A stretch of 64,000 nt of DNA from Rhizobium redzepovicii. Its GTDB lineage: Bacteria; Pseudomonadota; Alphaproteobacteria; Rhizobiales; Rhizobiaceae. The stretch is from assembly GCF_019793435.1 (NCBI RefSeq), contig NZ_JAILYH010000006.1, positions 186,001 through 250,000 of the forward strand, given 5' to 3'. The position numbers and the translations under genes were made by a program. Each line of letters starts with the position of its first letter. Position 1 is the stretch's first letter. Below are positions 41,906 through 61,330 of this stretch, one piece after another. A model generated the notes under the pieces. The model was not told the DNA's origin and ran no database searches. It saw only the letters and a list, made by a program, of their open reading frames with translations.

Positions 41906-43906
41906 ATGTTCCTCTATAAGGCTATCGTCTTTCTTCCCTTGATCGGTGCGATCGTCGCCGGCCTGTTCGGCCGCGCCATCGGCGCCAAGGCTTCGGAATA
42001 TGTCACCAGCGGCCTGATGATCATCGCCGCCATCCTCTCCTGGTACGTCTTCTTCACCGTCGGCATGGGCCACGGCGAAGGCGGCCCGATCAAGGTCGAG
42101 GTGCTGCGCTGGATCCAGTCCGGCGGCATCGACGTCTCCTGGTCGCTGCGCGTGGATACGCTGACCTCCGTCATGCTGATCGTCGTCAACACGGTCTCGA
42201 CGCTGGTTCACGTCTATTCGATCGGCTACATGCACACCGATCCGCATCGCCCGCGCTTCTTCGCCTATCTCTCGCTCTTCACCTTCGCCATGCTGATGCT
42301 GGTGACGGCCGACAACCTGGCGCAGATGTTTTTCGGCTGGGAAGGCGTCGGTCTTGCCTCCTATCTGCTGATCGGCTTCTGGTTCAAGAAGCCGTCGGCA
42401 ACGGCTGCGGCGATGAAGGCCTTCATCGTCAACCGCGTCGGCGACTTCGGCTTCGTGCTCGGCATTGCCGGCGTCTTCGTGCTGTTCGGTTCGATCAACT
42501 TCGACACGATTTTCGCCAATGCCTCGAACTTCGCCCCGCATGAAGGCGGCGGCGAGGCGAGCGAAGTGATCCTCAACCTCTTCGGCATGCAGCTCGACAA
42601 GGCGCATGCGCTGACCGGCGTCTGCCTGCTGCTATTCATGGGCGCCATGGGCAAGTCGGCGCAGTTCCTGCTGCACACCTGGCTCCCTGATGCCATGGAA
42701 GGCCCGACCCCGGTCTCGGCCCTCATCCATGCCGCCACCATGGTCACCGCCGGCGTCTTCCTCGTCGCCCGCATGTCGCCGCTCTTCGAACTGTCGCCGG
42801 ACGCACTCGTCGTCGTCACGGTGATCGGCGCGATCACCGCCTTCTTCGCGGCGACGGTCGGCCTGGTGCAGAACGACATCAAGCGCGTCATCGCCTATTC
42901 GACCTGCTCGCAGCTCGGCTACATGTTCGTGGCGCTCGGGGTCGGGGCCTACGGCGCGGCAATCTTCCATCTGTTCACGCACGCCTTCTTCAAGGCGCTG
43001 CTTTTCCTCTGCGCCGGCTCAGTCATCCATGCCGTCGATGGCGAGCAGGACATGCGCTACATGGGCGGGCTTTGGCCGCATATCAAAGTTACAGGCGGCC
43101 TGATGATCATCGGCACGCTGGCGATTACCGGTGTCGGCATTCCCTTCACGCCGATCGGCTTTGCCGGCTTCTTCTCCAAGGACGTGATCATCGAGGCGAC
43201 CTATGCTTCGCATTCGCCGGTCGCAGGCTTTGCCTTCTCGCTGCTGGTCATCGCGGCTCTGTTTACGAGCTTCTACTCCTGGCGCCTGATCTTCATGACC
43301 TTCTTCGGCAAGCCGCGCGCTTCGCACGAAGTGATGCACCACGTTCATGAATCGCCGCAGGTCATGCTGGTGCCGCTCTATCTCCTCGCGATCGGCGCTG
43401 TGCTTGCCGGCGTGATCTTCGAAGGTCGCTTCTACGGCGAGGAATATGCCGAGTTCTGGAAGGGCGCGCTCTTCACCGGCGCCGAGAACGAACTCGTCGA
43501 ACAGTTCCATCACGTGCCGGCGCTCGTGGGCCTGAGCCCCTTCATCGCCATGCTGCTCGGCTTCGCCCTTGCCTGGTACATGTATATCCGTTCGCCGCAG
43601 ACGCCGCGCACCCTCGCCAGGCAGCACCGGGTTCTCTATCAGTTCCTGTTGAACAAGTGGTACTTCGACGAACTCTACGATTTCCTCTTCGTCCGCACCG
43701 CCAAGGCGCTTGGCCGCTTCCTGTGGAAGAAGGGTGATGTCGGCGTCATCGACACCTACGGCCCGAACGGCGTGGCCGCCCGGGTCGTCGCCGTCACCGA
43801 CCGCGTCGTCCGCCTGCAGACCGGTTACCTCTATCACTACGCCTTCGCCATGCTGATCGGCATTGCGGCGCTTGTTACCTGGATGATGCTCGGGAGTTCC
43901 TTCTGA
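41906..43906 (+). CDS. nuoL: NADH-quinone oxidoreductase subunit L
   Basis: The distal antiporter-like proton pump (ND5). The 666 residues form about 16 helices, with [16 protein letters not shown], the pump lysine region [33 protein letters not shown], and a C-terminal lateral helix. The stop overlaps the nuoM start by one base (TGATG). Confidence 0.98.
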
Positions 43907-50147: not shown

Positions 50148-50316
50148 GATCAAACTTTTGCCCAAACTTTGGGCATATGTATATCATTAAAAAGCGACCT
50201 TCGTCATACCAGCGTCATGGTGTTGCGGCAAAAGAGCTGCCGTTACGGAATGAGCATCATTCCCTTACGGTAGTTGGCTGGATTTTTGGGGTCGGATGAA
50301 GCCGAAAAGCCAAAAA

Positions 50317-50341
50317 AAAACAAGGCTAAAAGCCTTGTTTT
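50317..50341 (+). terminator. Bidirectional rho-independent terminator
   Basis: AAAACAAGGCT / AGCCTTGTTTT, 11-bp perfect stem with an AAA loop. The A-run on the left and T-run on the right allow termination in both directions, but only the upstream plus-strand operon is known to need it. Confidence 0.88.
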
Positions 50342-50456
50342 AAGTATCGCGTGATCTGTAACCGTTGCCGGGGCAGCGACGAGCGCGCCTAAGATCTGAT
50401 CCTCCCAAGACTTGACCGCGAATTCGGCAAGAATTTATCCTTCCTGCCTGTTTTGT

Positions 50457-54554: not shown

Positions 54555-54805
54555 ATCCCGTTCTCCTCTCGGCCGGATGCTGGCAAATATGCTGCGGCAT
54601 GTAAAGAACAGAAACAGAACAAAAACGGCAAGCAAGGCGGGTCGCTGCGAGAGGCGCACTGCCGTTTGAGTAGCCTGTCCGATCCGTCACCGATCGCGAG
54701 AGAACAGGCGCAGCCCATCGTATCGCTTGGCACTCTCATCGATTCGCGATTCGCGTCCTGGATTTTAAAACGCAAGAAAGAAGGAAAAGATTCCTGTTGA
54801 CAATG

Positions 54806-54820
54806 GAACATAAATCGAAC
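54806..54820 (+). promoter_or_regulatory. LexA (SOS) box
   Basis: GAAC-N7-GAAC, i.e. GTTC-N7-GTTC on the other strand, the alphaproteobacterial LexA operator; the flank even reads TTTGTTC on that strand. It lies just downstream of a TTGACA at 54797-54802, so it covers the spacer of a promoter, and 34 bases upstream of the 28-residue peptide. It should repress that promoter until DNA damage. Confidence 0.75.
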
Positions 54821-54853
54821 AAATTGAAAACATAACGAGTAAATGAGAGCCAA

Positions 54854-54940
54854 ATGACTGACATGATCCGTGATATCGCAGCATTCACCTCCATCGCAAT
54901 GTTCGTCGCCAGCTTCTCGCTCATCGTCATGGCGATCTAA
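54854..54940 (+). CDS. 28-residue single-span membrane peptide, likely SOS-controlled
   Basis: A short gene with ATG 54854 behind GAGAGCC and a TAA stop. The product starts MTDMIRDI (an amphipathic, charged N terminus) and the remaining 20 residues are hydrophobic (AAFTSIAMFVASFSLIV...), enough for one membrane helix, ending directly after it. A LexA box lies 34 bases upstream. In Caulobacter the 29-residue LexA-controlled membrane peptide SidA halts division by acting at the divisome; this gene has the same size, topology and control, so a similar role is my inference, not a homology claim. A strong hairpin at 54951-54975 follows, then dnaE. Confidence 0.65.
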   Translation: MTDMIRDIAAFTSIAMFVASFSLIVMAI

Positions 54941-54950
54941 AGTTTTCAGG

Positions 54951-54975
54951 GGACCGCATGGCCATCATGCGGTCC
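54951..54975 (+). terminator. Strong hairpin between the peptide gene and dnaE
   Basis: GGACCGCATG / CATGCGGTCC, 10 perfect base pairs with a GCCAT loop, 10 bases after the peptide's stop. No T-run follows, so it may stabilise the short mRNA or attenuate read-through into dnaE and not simply terminate. Confidence 0.6.
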
Positions 54976-55057
54976 GCAAGCGGGACTTGTTCTGGACATC
55001 ATCGCCCTCTATGCCGACAATGCGTCCGACTCATTCGGGTGATTGGGAAGGCATGAC

Positions 55058-58000
55058 ATGGCGGATACGGCAAAGGGTTCTACGGGCGAGGCGATCGGCG
55101 GCACGCCGGGCTTCATCCACCTGAGGGTCCACTCCGCCTATTCGCTTCTCGAAGGCGCCTTGCCGCTGAAGAAGATCCTCTACAAGGCAACCGGCGACAG
55201 CCAGCCGGCGATCGCCATCACCGATACCAACAATCTGTTCATCGCGCTGGAATTCTCCCAGAAGGCGATGGACGACGGCCTGCAGCCGATCATCGGCTGC
55301 CAGGTCTCGATCGACATGGAAGACGGGCTGGAAACGGAAAAGCGCGGCGGCCAGCAGGCGCTGGTCAAGCTGCCGTCGATCGTTCTTCTCGCCGCCACGG
55401 ATGCCGGTTACGAACGACTGGTCGATCTCGTCAGCCGCGCCTATCTCGGCGGTGAAAGCAACCAGGCTATCCATATCCGTGCCTCCTGGCTGGAGGAGGC
55501 CGGCACGGAAGGGCTGATCGCCCTGACCGGCGCCCTGACCGGGCCTGTCGACGCGGCGATCAAGGAAGGCCATCCCGCGCAGGGGGAGGCCCGGCTGCTT
55601 GTGCTGAAACGTCTCTTCGGCGACAGGCTCTACGTCGAATTGCAGCGGCACGGCACTTACGACAAACGTCACGAACAAAAGATCATCGGCCTCGCCTATA
55701 GCAATGACCTGCCGCTGGTTGCGACCAACGAGGCCTTCTTTCCGACACGCGACGATTACGACGCCCATGATGCGCTGATGGCGGTCGCCCACAATGCCAT
55801 CGTCTCCGACGACAGCCGCTTTCGCCTGACCCCGGACCATTATCTGAAGAGCCGGGCCGAGATGGCCAAGCTCTTCGCCGATCTGCCGGAAGCACTGGAA
55901 AACACGATCGAGATCGCCAAGCGCTGCTCCTTCGTGCTGAAGACGCGAAAGCCGATCCTGCCGCGCTTCACCGGCGCGACTGACGACGCCGAGGAGGCTG
56001 AACGCGCCGAGGCGAGCGAACTGCGCCGCCAGGCTGTGGAAGGGCTGGATATGCGGCTTTCGACGCTCGGCATGTCACCGGGCTACGAGGAAAAGGATTA
56101 TCGCGAGCGGCTGGATTTCGAACTCAGCGTCATCGAGCGCATGCGTTTTCCCGGTTACTTCCTGATCGTTGCCGACTTCATCAAATGGGCCAAGCAGCAC
56201 GACATTCCGGTCGGTCCCGGCCGCGGTTCGGGCGCGGGTTCCCTGGTTGCCTACGCTTTGACGATCACCGACGTCGATCCGCTGCGGTTTTCGCTGCTCT
56301 TCGAACGCTTCCTCAATCCGGAACGCGTCTCGATGCCGGACTTCGACATCGACTTCTGCCAGGACCGCCGCGAAGAGGTGATCCGCTACGTCCAGGCCAA
56401 GTATGGCCGCGAGCAGGTGGCGCAGATCATCACCTTCGGTTCGCTGCAGGCGCGCGCCGCCCTTCGTGACGTCGGCCGCGTGCTTGAGATGCCTTATGGG
56501 CAGGTCGACAAGATCTGCAAGCTGGTGCCGAACAATCCGGCCAATCCGACGCCGCTCTCCAAAGCGATCGAGGAGGAGCCGAAGCTGCAGGAGGAGGCGG
56601 CGAAGGAGCCCGTCGTCGCCCGCCTGCTCGACATTGCCCAGAAGATCGAGGGGCTTTACCGCCACGCCTCGACGCATGCCGCCGGCATCGTCATCGGCGA
56701 CCGCCCGCTTTCCAAGCTGGTGCCGATGTATCGCGATCCGCGCTCGGACATGCCGGTTACCCAGTTTAATATGAAGTGGGTGGAGCAGGCCGGCCTCGTC
56801 AAATTCGACTTCCTCGGCCTGAAGACGCTGACGGTGTTGAAGGTCGCCGTCGATTTCGTCGCCAAGCGCGGCATCAAGGTCGATCTCGCGGCCATTCCTC
56901 TCGACGACAAACCGACCTACGAGATGCTGTCGCGCGGCGAGACGGTCGGCGTGTTCCAGGTGGAAAGTGCCGGCATGCGCAAGGCGCTGATCGGCATGAA
57001 GCCGGACTGCATCGAGGACATCATCGCGCTGGTGGCGCTCTATCGCCCGGGTCCGATGGAGAACATCCCGACCTACAATGCCCGCAAGCACGGTGACGAA
57101 GAGCTGGAATCGATCCATCCGATGATCGACCACCTGCTCAAGGAAACCCAAGGGGTCATCGTCTATCAGGAACAGGTGATGCAGATCGCCCAGGTCCTGT
57201 CCGGTTACTCGCTCGGAGAGGCCGATCTTCTGCGCCGCGCCATGGGCAAGAAGATCAAGGCCGAGATGGACCAGCAGCGCGAACGCTTCGTCGTCGGCGC
57301 CGTCAAGAACGGCGTCTCGAAGCCGCAGGCCGACAATATCTTCGAACTGCTGGCGAAGTTCGCCAATTACGGCTTCAACAAGTCGCATGCCGCTGCTTAC
57401 GCGATCGTCTCCTACCAGACGGCCTATATGAAGGCGCATTATCCGGTCGAATTCCTCGCCGCCTCGATGACGCTCGACATGTCCAACACGGAAAAGGTCA
57501 ATGACTTCCGCCAGGATGCCAAGCGGCTAGGCATCGAGGTGATCGCACCCTCGGTGCAGACGTCCTTCCGCCATTTCCAGACCGGCGACAACCGCATCTA
57601 TTACGCGCTGGCCGCCCTCAAGGGCGTCGGCGAATCCGCCGTCGACCATATCGTCGAGGTGCGTGGCGACAAGCCCTTTGCCGGCATCGAGGATTTCTGC
57701 CTGCGCATCGATCCGCGCCAGGTCAACCGCCGTGTATTGGAAAGCCTGATCTTTGCCGGCGCCTTTGATTGTTTCGGCACCGATCGCGCCCAGCTTTCAG
57801 CCGGCCTCGACCGCATCCTCGGTTATGCCCAGCGCGCCCAGGAGAACAAGCTGAGCGGCCAGTCGGATATTTTCGGCAGCACGCTGACCTCGGGGCCCGA
57901 GAAGATTTCCCTTCCACCGTTTTCGCCCTGGCTTGCCTCCGAGCGGCTGCTCAAGGAATTCCAGGTGCTAGGCTTCTATCTCACCGCCCACCCGCTCGAT

Positions 58001-58555
58001 TCCTACAACAACCTCCTGCAGAAGATGCGGGTGCAGACCTTTGCCGAATTTTCCCAGGCGATCAAACAGGGCGCCTTCAATGCGCGCCTCGCCGGCACCG
58101 TCATTTCGAAGCAGGAGCGCAAGACCCGCACCGGCAACAAGATGGGCATCATCGTCTTTTCCGATTCTTCGGGCCAGTTCGAGGCGGTGCTGTTTTCGGA
58201 AATGCTCAACCAGTACCGCGACGTGCTGGAGTCGGGAAAATCCTTCGTGCTGACCGCCACCGGCGAGGAGCGGCCGGAGGGGATTGGCCTGCGCATCCAG
58301 ACGATCCAGTCGCTGGAGGAAAAGTCGCTGCAGATGCAGAAGGCGCTGCGCGTCTATATCAGAGATTCCGGGCCGCTGAAGATGGTCGCCGGCCATCTCA
58401 ACGCCAGGGGCGATGGCCTCGTTTCCTTCATCGTCATCAAGGAGGAGGGCAAACGCGAGGTGGAAGTGGCGCTGGCTGAGAAATACCGCATCACGCCGGA
58501 GATCGCCGCCGCTCTTCGCGCCGCCCCCGGTGTTGTCGATGTCGAGCTTGTCTGA
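55058..58555 (+). CDS. dnaE: DNA polymerase III subunit alpha
   Basis: The replicative polymerase of the holoenzyme. From ATG 55058 it has 1165 residues; an earlier TTG at 55043 is less likely. The N-terminal PHP domain starts FIHLRVHSAYSLLEGALPLKK. The palm domain carries the catalytic Asp residues in SMPDFDIDFCQDRREEVIRY, near residues 425-435. GPGRGSGAGSLVAYAL and RHASTHAAGIVIGD are further polymerase motifs, and the fingers, HhH and OB domains follow to the end. It is the housekeeping dnaE1 type, not the imuC-like error-prone form. The SOS box and hairpin upstream raise the possibility of damage-modulated expression. Confidence 0.97.
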   Translation: MADTAKGSTGEAIGGTPGFIHLRVHSAYSLLEGALPLKKILYKATGDSQPAIAITDTNNLFIALEFSQKAMDDGLQPIIGCQVSIDMEDGLETEKRGGQQALVKLPSIVLLAATDAGYERLVDLVSRAYLGGESNQAIHIRASWLEEAGTEGLIALTGALTGPVDAAIKEGHPAQGEARLLVLKRLFGDRLYVELQRHGTYDKRHEQKIIGLAYSNDLPLVATNEAFFPTRDDYDAHDALMAVAHNAIVSDDSRFRLTPDHYLKSRAEMAKLFADLPEALENTIEIAKRCSFVLKTRKPILPRFTGATDDAEEAERAEASELRRQAVEGLDMRLSTLGMSPGYEEKDYRERLDFELSVIERMRFPGYFLIVADFIKWAKQHDIPVGPGRGSGAGSLVAYALTITDVDPLRFSLLFERFLNPERVSMPDFDIDFCQDRREEVIRYVQAKYGREQVAQIITFGSLQARAALRDVGRVLEMPYGQVDKICKLVPNNPANPTPLSKAIEEEPKLQEEAAKEPVVARLLDIAQKIEGLYRHASTHAAGIVIGDRPLSKLVPMYRDPRSDMPVTQFNMKWVEQAGLVKFDFLGLKTLTVLKVAVDFVAKRGIKVDLAAIPLDDKPTYEMLSRGETVGVFQVESAGMRKALIGMKPDCIEDIIALVALYRPGPMENIPTYNARKHGDEELESIHPMIDHLLKETQGVIVYQEQVMQIAQVLSGYSLGEADLLRRAMGKKIKAEMDQQRERFVVGAVKNGVSKPQADNIFELLAKFANYGFNKSHAAAYAIVSYQTAYMKAHYPVEFLAASMTLDMSNTEKVNDFRQDAKRLGIEVIAPSVQTSFRHFQTGDNRIYYALAALKGVGESAVDHIVEVRGDKPFAGIEDFCLRIDPRQVNRRVLESLIFAGAFDCFGTDRAQLSAGLDRILGYAQRAQENKLSGQSDIFGSTLTSGPEKISLPPFSPWLASERLLKEFQVLGFYLTAHPLDSYNNLLQKMRVQTFAEFSQAIKQGAFNARLAGTVISKQERKTRTGNKMGIIVFSDSSGQFEAVLFSEMLNQYRDVLESGKSFVLTATGEERPEGIGLRIQTIQSLEEKSLQMQKALRVYIRDSGPLKMVAGHLNARGDGLVSFIVIKEEGKREVEVALAEKYRITPEIAAALRAAPGVVDVELV

Positions 58556-61258: not shown

Positions 61259-61330
61259 GAGAACAAAGGTTGAACGCCGCGACACTACGCCTTAAGCTTC
61301 CGAGTCTCAAGAGAGGCGGGAGCTTTGCCT

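Follow-up and report, generated by a model that had tools for sequence, protein, structure and literature searches.

SidA of Caulobacter is described as a 29-residue inner-membrane protein which is induced in the SOS response and acts on FtsW (PMC4211646), and the alphaproteobacterial operator given for Caulobacter is GTTC-N7-GTTC (PMC12700426). Deletion is reported to rescue the growth of lexA-null Caulobacter (PMC12700426). AF3 models place SidA, together with YneA, ChiZ and SosA, on TM7 of FtsW; the models of SidA, ChiZ and SosA are not of high confidence, and SidA is placed on the opposite side of TM7 (PMC13396833). For rhizobia, a ribosome-profiling paper from 2023 names sORF25, located in the 5'-UTR of dnaE1 of Sinorhizobium meliloti, as one of a group of novel small ORFs and considers that part of this group may act as uORFs (PMC10117765). 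Neither LexA nor SidA appears in the main text of that paper. The initial annotation of the locus presented here, in which no description in rhizobia was known, has therefore to be qualified, since an ORF before dnaE1 is in print as one of the possible uORFs. In the literature searched, which consisted mainly of titles and the beginnings of abstracts, no relative of SidA was described outside Caulobacter, the place of SidA before dnaE was not described either, and none of the SOS division inhibitors mentioned by name came from rhizobia. The link to SidA, including the common position before dnaE, is the new point of the present analysis.

The window analysed here is a stretch of 64,000 nucleotides from Rhizobium redzepovicii. 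The locus consists of the following features:

54797..54802, plus strand: TTGACA, a -35-like element recognised from the sequence, which together with CAAATT is a possible promoter of the peptide gene
54806..54820, plus strand: candidate LexA operator GAACATAAATCGAAC, pattern GAAC-N7-GAAC, within the promoter spacer
54820-54825, plus strand: CAAATT, candidate promoter half, after a 17-base spacer from TTGACA
54845..54849, plus strand: ribosome binding site GAGAG recognised from the sequence; the site reads AATGAGAG in the window and AAGGAGAG in close relatives
54854..54940, plus strand: sidA-like gene of 28 codons, MTDMIRDIAAFTSIAMFVASFSLIVMAI, with one hydrophobic stretch, coding constraint and a profile relation to SidA
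54951..54975, plus strand: 10-bp hairpin with the stem GGACCGCATG/CATGCGGTCC, after the peptide gene and without a T run
54992..55021, plus strand: CTGGAC-N18-GACAAT, candidate dnaE promoter, conserved between hairpin and dnaE
55058..58555, plus strand: dnaE, replicative DNA polymerase III alpha subunit (Pfam DNA_pol3_alpha)

The arrangement proposed in the initial annotation, i.e. a GAAC-N7-GAAC operator at 54806-54820, TTGACA, a 28-codon frame, a 10-bp hairpin and then dnaE, is present in the sequence in all its parts. The operator precedes the gene, with 33 bases between box and ATG. As TTGACA stands 17 bases ahead of CAAATT, the operator occupies the spacer of that possible promoter. In model searches the peptide matched neither Pfam nor NCBIfam models. 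Elsewhere in the window (50312-50456, minus strand), the Alphaproteobacterial sRNA ar9 was detected (Rfam, 141.7 bits).

The 28-codon frame was present in all 25 same-genus genomes, the own genome included, and was found weakly in one of 16 genomes from other families. A relative also occurs in Rhizobium johnstonii 3841. The comparison within Rhizobium was based on 104 loci, 25 of them from the genus search and 79 from the best 80 of 184 relatives, with genomes partly shared; a 105th locus was dropped by the start-codon filter, and its sequence has both the frame (starting ATGATTGAC) and the box. From 69 distinct coding sequences, a pS of 0.354 and a pN of 0.060 were obtained (pN/pS 0.168); the pN/pS ratio averaged 0.889 over 100 column shuffles, none of which fell below 0.435. 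The variable columns were distributed over codon positions 1, 2 and 3 as 11, 5 and 27. Among the other frames, one antisense frame had a pN/pS of 0.37 and the remaining four were above 1. The frame evolves as a protein. In the initial annotation, a lack of frame conservation or of synonymous-site bias in relatives had been named as refuting the proposal; the frame is conserved and the synonymous bias is strong.

Taken alone, the strict box is at chance level. Four boxes were observed in the window against 1.85 expected, with at least four in 13 of 100 shuffles, and genome-wide counts were 92+80 (172) for the strict box and 82+77 (159) for the reversed pattern. As stand-alone evidence the box was therefore rejected; the excess over chance comes from its conservation and its conjunction with the frame. 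A strict box lies at most 120 bases from the start in 102 of the 104 Rhizobium loci. Its position is -46 to -49 in 102 of the 103 boxes counted and -38 in the remaining one, so the spacing, for which conservation in relatives had been asked beforehand, is conserved. In the order and class surveys, TTGAC starts 8-12 bases ahead of the box for 28 of the 44 boxes preceding a membrane ORF, some genomes contributing two boxes. A LexA scoring over the cut-off is encoded in the same genome, the lexA gene of which has the box GAACACATATGGAAC, 64 nt ahead of its match start. From its pattern, the GAAC-N7-GAAC element is assigned as a putative LexA operator.

Three further strict boxes are present in the window. 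GTTCTGTTTCTGTTC (54606-54620) lies 52-66 nt upstream of 54554, where a divergent DUF5680 gene probably starts, and a box at a roughly matching place recurs in several same-genus loci. GTTCAACCTTTGTTC (61261-61275) ends 2 bases ahead of an ATG of a DinB-like polymerase (Pfam IMS) on the minus strand. With boxes at the peptide gene and at the DinB-like gene, SOS-type boxes flank dnaE on both sides. The fourth box of the window is GTTCTCTATCAGTTC (43631-43645). Six loci (L032, L040, L041, L045, L046 and L053) display three consecutive GAAC half-sites with 7-base gaps before the peptide gene, corresponding to two overlapping boxes 11 bases apart.

The family search covered 151 genomes. The best 30 matches were fetched, and all 30 lie before dnaE with a strict box just upstream in 27 of them. 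Since sequence search loses such short peptides, the DNA before dnaE was read directly. In the family set, a strict box combined with a short hydrophobic ORF was found in 31 of 58 regions (34 of 58 when one mismatch was allowed), and one further copy lies just beyond the 700-base limit. The order set yielded a box with a short membrane ORF for 32 of 67 genomes, and the class set, in which most families are represented by a single genome and many genomes are small, for 8 of 88. Dinucleotide shuffles of the order and class sets (20 each) gave a mean of 0.05 and a maximum of 1 for the order and a mean of 0.0 for the class. The genomes with dnaE matches had numbered 94 in the class, 70 in the order and 61 in the family, of which 6, 3 and 3, respectively, had been dropped as own genome, contig edge, partial match or counted in another set. 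Under the counting rule, regions without a recognised copy numbered 24 of 58 in the family, 35 of 67 in the order and 80 of 88 in the class; some of these regions hold a copy with no recognisable box, such as L365 and L436, in which it precedes the dnaE match by 159 and 249 bases. The peptide gene before dnaE is common, yet far from universal. When the Rhizobiaceae-heavy profile A2 was run over the class, no distant members were recovered: 5 of 144 genomes were at E <= 0.05, one being the own genome and the other four resembling noise. At such a length sequence search fails, and the position before dnaE works.

Tryptophan occurs in the second half of 25 of the 32 order-survey peptides (W-x-[DE] in 11 of 32) and of 7 of the 31 family-set peptides (W-x-[DE] in 3 of 31), and SidA has W19 instead. 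Phage carriage was looked for and gave no match. Plasmid records were limited to one Shinella replicon of 4.6 Mb, in which no feature is annotated at that place (the gene table holds 2 features in all).

The relation to SidA was analysed with the NCBIfam model NF033228 (div_inhib_SidA). This model, which has a curated cut-off of 35 bits, gave no match to the window peptide; among the relatives it matched one of 27, at E 0.031, and none of the ten intermediates tried directly. Over 385 class genomes, the model was over the cut-off in one, with 27 at E <= 0.1, many of which are probably noise. One class peptide found by reading ahead of dnaE reached E 3.5e-4 and 20.5 bits, the cut-off being 35. 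In the family of genome G720, E <= 0.05 was obtained in 67 of 80 genomes and the cut-off was exceeded in 49 of 80, making it the only family of the class with over-cut-off matches among the genomes searched. This family is presumably Caulobacteraceae, because Caulobacter vibrioides was among the controls matching NF033228, one of which was over the cut-off. Thirty of the 49 over-cut-off SidA loci were fetched. In all 30 the next gene is a same-strand dnaE, which by extrapolation of the alignment begins 80-317 bases past the sidA match start, and a strict box lies upstream in 22. L172 of G720 resembles these loci. As dnaE directly follows in all 30, the gene that precedes dnaE is sidA itself. 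Among the second matches in these genomes, the one fetched comes from G768 and is a SidA-like frame 37 residues long (L440; 28.5 bits with NF033228, below the cut-off); it overlaps the end of an upstream frame and has neither dnaE nor a strict box in 2.5 kb, so that the neighbourhood of SidA with dnaE is not exclusive.

Profiles were then compared with hhalign, using 27 Hyphomicrobiales peptides (A2, out of 38 distinct peptides) and 23 of 26 SidA-type peptides (A3), one of which (G419) is below the cut-off. Columns 1-22 of the rhizobial profile aligned with columns 1-22 of the SidA profile, ungapped from Met1, with a probability of 88 and a P of 3.1e-6, bearing in mind that profile statistics over 22 columns are modest and that hydrophobic stretches align easily. 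The positions common to both are R6, [DE]7, A10, [FL]11, S13, [IV]14 and F17. The null for the SidA HMM consisted of 1062 membrane ORFs without a preceding box, the top two of which (L365 and L436) proved to be dnaE leaders themselves; its 99th percentile was exceeded by 49 of the 61 peptides that do not belong to the SidA family. The best intermediate, L437 from the family of the window, obtained 21.2 bits, as high as none of the 1062 nulls, and has 12 of 28 residues in common with a SidA. The window peptide obtained 7.5 bits, which 3 of 1062 nulls reach, two being dnaE leaders. The FVWM stretch is invariant in the 23 SidA-type peptides and missing from the window peptide and its relatives. 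The profiles point to homology with SidA, and the window peptide looks like a diverged branch, a distant SidA relative. The comparison with SidA, proposed initially as an analogy, is supported beyond it by the same place before dnaE (30/30 fetched) and by the alignment of the profiles.

In Rhizobium, the 48 nt behind the stop codon, represented by 80 distinct sequences, fold at an MFE <= -8 in every case (no shuffle control), and the stem sequence of the hairpin varies between clades. Between hairpin and dnaE, TGGAC is unchanged in all 24 sequences aligned, and [CT]TGGAC-N17-19-[GC]ANAAT was found in 98 of the 104 loci (no shuffle control). The CTGGAC-N18-GACAAT block looks like the promoter of dnaE itself, which argues for separate transcription units. 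In view of this block, the link between peptide and polymerase supply suggested in the initial annotation stays hypothetical. As the hairpin has no T run, read-through is possible. An ancestral alphaproteobacterial SOS unit sidA-dnaE, in which one LexA-controlled promoter would provide the division-halting peptide and also raise polymerase via hairpin read-through, is rather unlikely; if true, a single locus would couple the completion of replication to the division checkpoint throughout the class.

Several other explanations of the locus were weighed. The gene could be a cis-acting leader uORF that tunes dnaE via the following hairpin, the peptide itself being inert. Such a role would suit the immediate proximity to dnaE, which the gene precedes in all 30 loci from the family search and in all 30 SidA loci fetched, the hairpin after the gene, and the fact that S. 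meliloti sORF25 is counted among the 5'-UTR ORFs that could be uORFs (PMC10117765). However, constraint acts at the amino-acid level (pN/pS 0.17), so that the peptide sequence is not free to vary, and residues are conserved from the start Met across orders. From locus to locus, the distance to dnaE differs by hundreds of bases, dnaE is preceded by its own promoter-like block, and the LexA box is at the start of the peptide gene and not at dnaE. A mere leader function is thus very unlikely.

A single hydrophobic stretch behind an SOS-type operator would also be expected of a single-helix peptide that is under SOS control but acts on a different target in the membrane, either a depolariser like TisB or DinQ or a regulator of another membrane protein. 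TisB and DinQ are both SOS peptides of this type. For DinQ, SOS regulation and the toxicity of a single-helix peptide have been described (PMC3567139). The profile relation to SidA stops at column 22, leaving room for such a target, which is however unlikely given that the place before dnaE and the profile relation are in common with SidA. Coincidence of a random open frame with a random box might be invoked since the strict box alone occurs at chance frequency in the genome, but conservation (25/25 genomes; box in 102/104 loci), codon bias and shuffle controls have already refuted it, and its probability is negligible.

We consider it probable that the locus contains a real gene for a SidA-type peptide which is LexA-repressed, induced by DNA damage and blocks the late divisome. 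Direct support exists for the gene and its coding constraint, for the conserved operator-start layout, for a location ahead of dnaE in different orders, and for the relation to SidA at the level of profiles. LexA bound to the operator inside the promoter would keep the peptide gene off. Upon DNA damage, activated RecA would lead to cleavage of LexA and the peptide would be made. The 28 residues are predicted to insert in the inner membrane, where the peptide may bind the late divisome (FtsW and partners) as Caulobacter SidA does. Septation would then be stopped until LexA returns, and cells would be expected to filament. By analogy with SidA, the most likely action of the rhizobial peptide would be on the active state of the late divisome, which it would block.

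The locus represents a concrete candidate for an SOS division inhibitor in a model genus and provides a simple rule for finding others, i.e. a LexA box and a helix of 24-38 residues before dnaE. It also raises the question why a checkpoint peptide stays beside the gene of the replicative polymerase.

Among known systems, YneA, SosA and ChiZ are likewise SOS-controlled one-helix membrane division inhibitors with a late divisome target; they come from other phyla, YneA and ChiZ have LysM domains, and a sequence relation is not claimed. DidA of Caulobacter is also a small single-helix division inhibitor but has 71 residues, is SOS-independent (DriD) and targets FtsN (PMC4211646). In a related genus, the 5'-UTR of dnaE1 also holds a small ORF, sORF25 of S. 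meliloti, in print as a possible uORF; from its position we infer that it belongs to the same peptide family. In contrast to SidA of Caulobacter crescentus, the window peptide has no NF033228 match, lacks W19-M20 and has an acidic D3, and its activity is predicted only. Both peptides nevertheless have nearly the same length (28 residues here, 29 in SidA) and one hydrophobic stretch, with R6-[DE]7, A10, [FL]11, S13, [IV]14 and F17 at the same positions, and both genes are preceded closely by a LexA-type box and lie directly before dnaE on the same strand.
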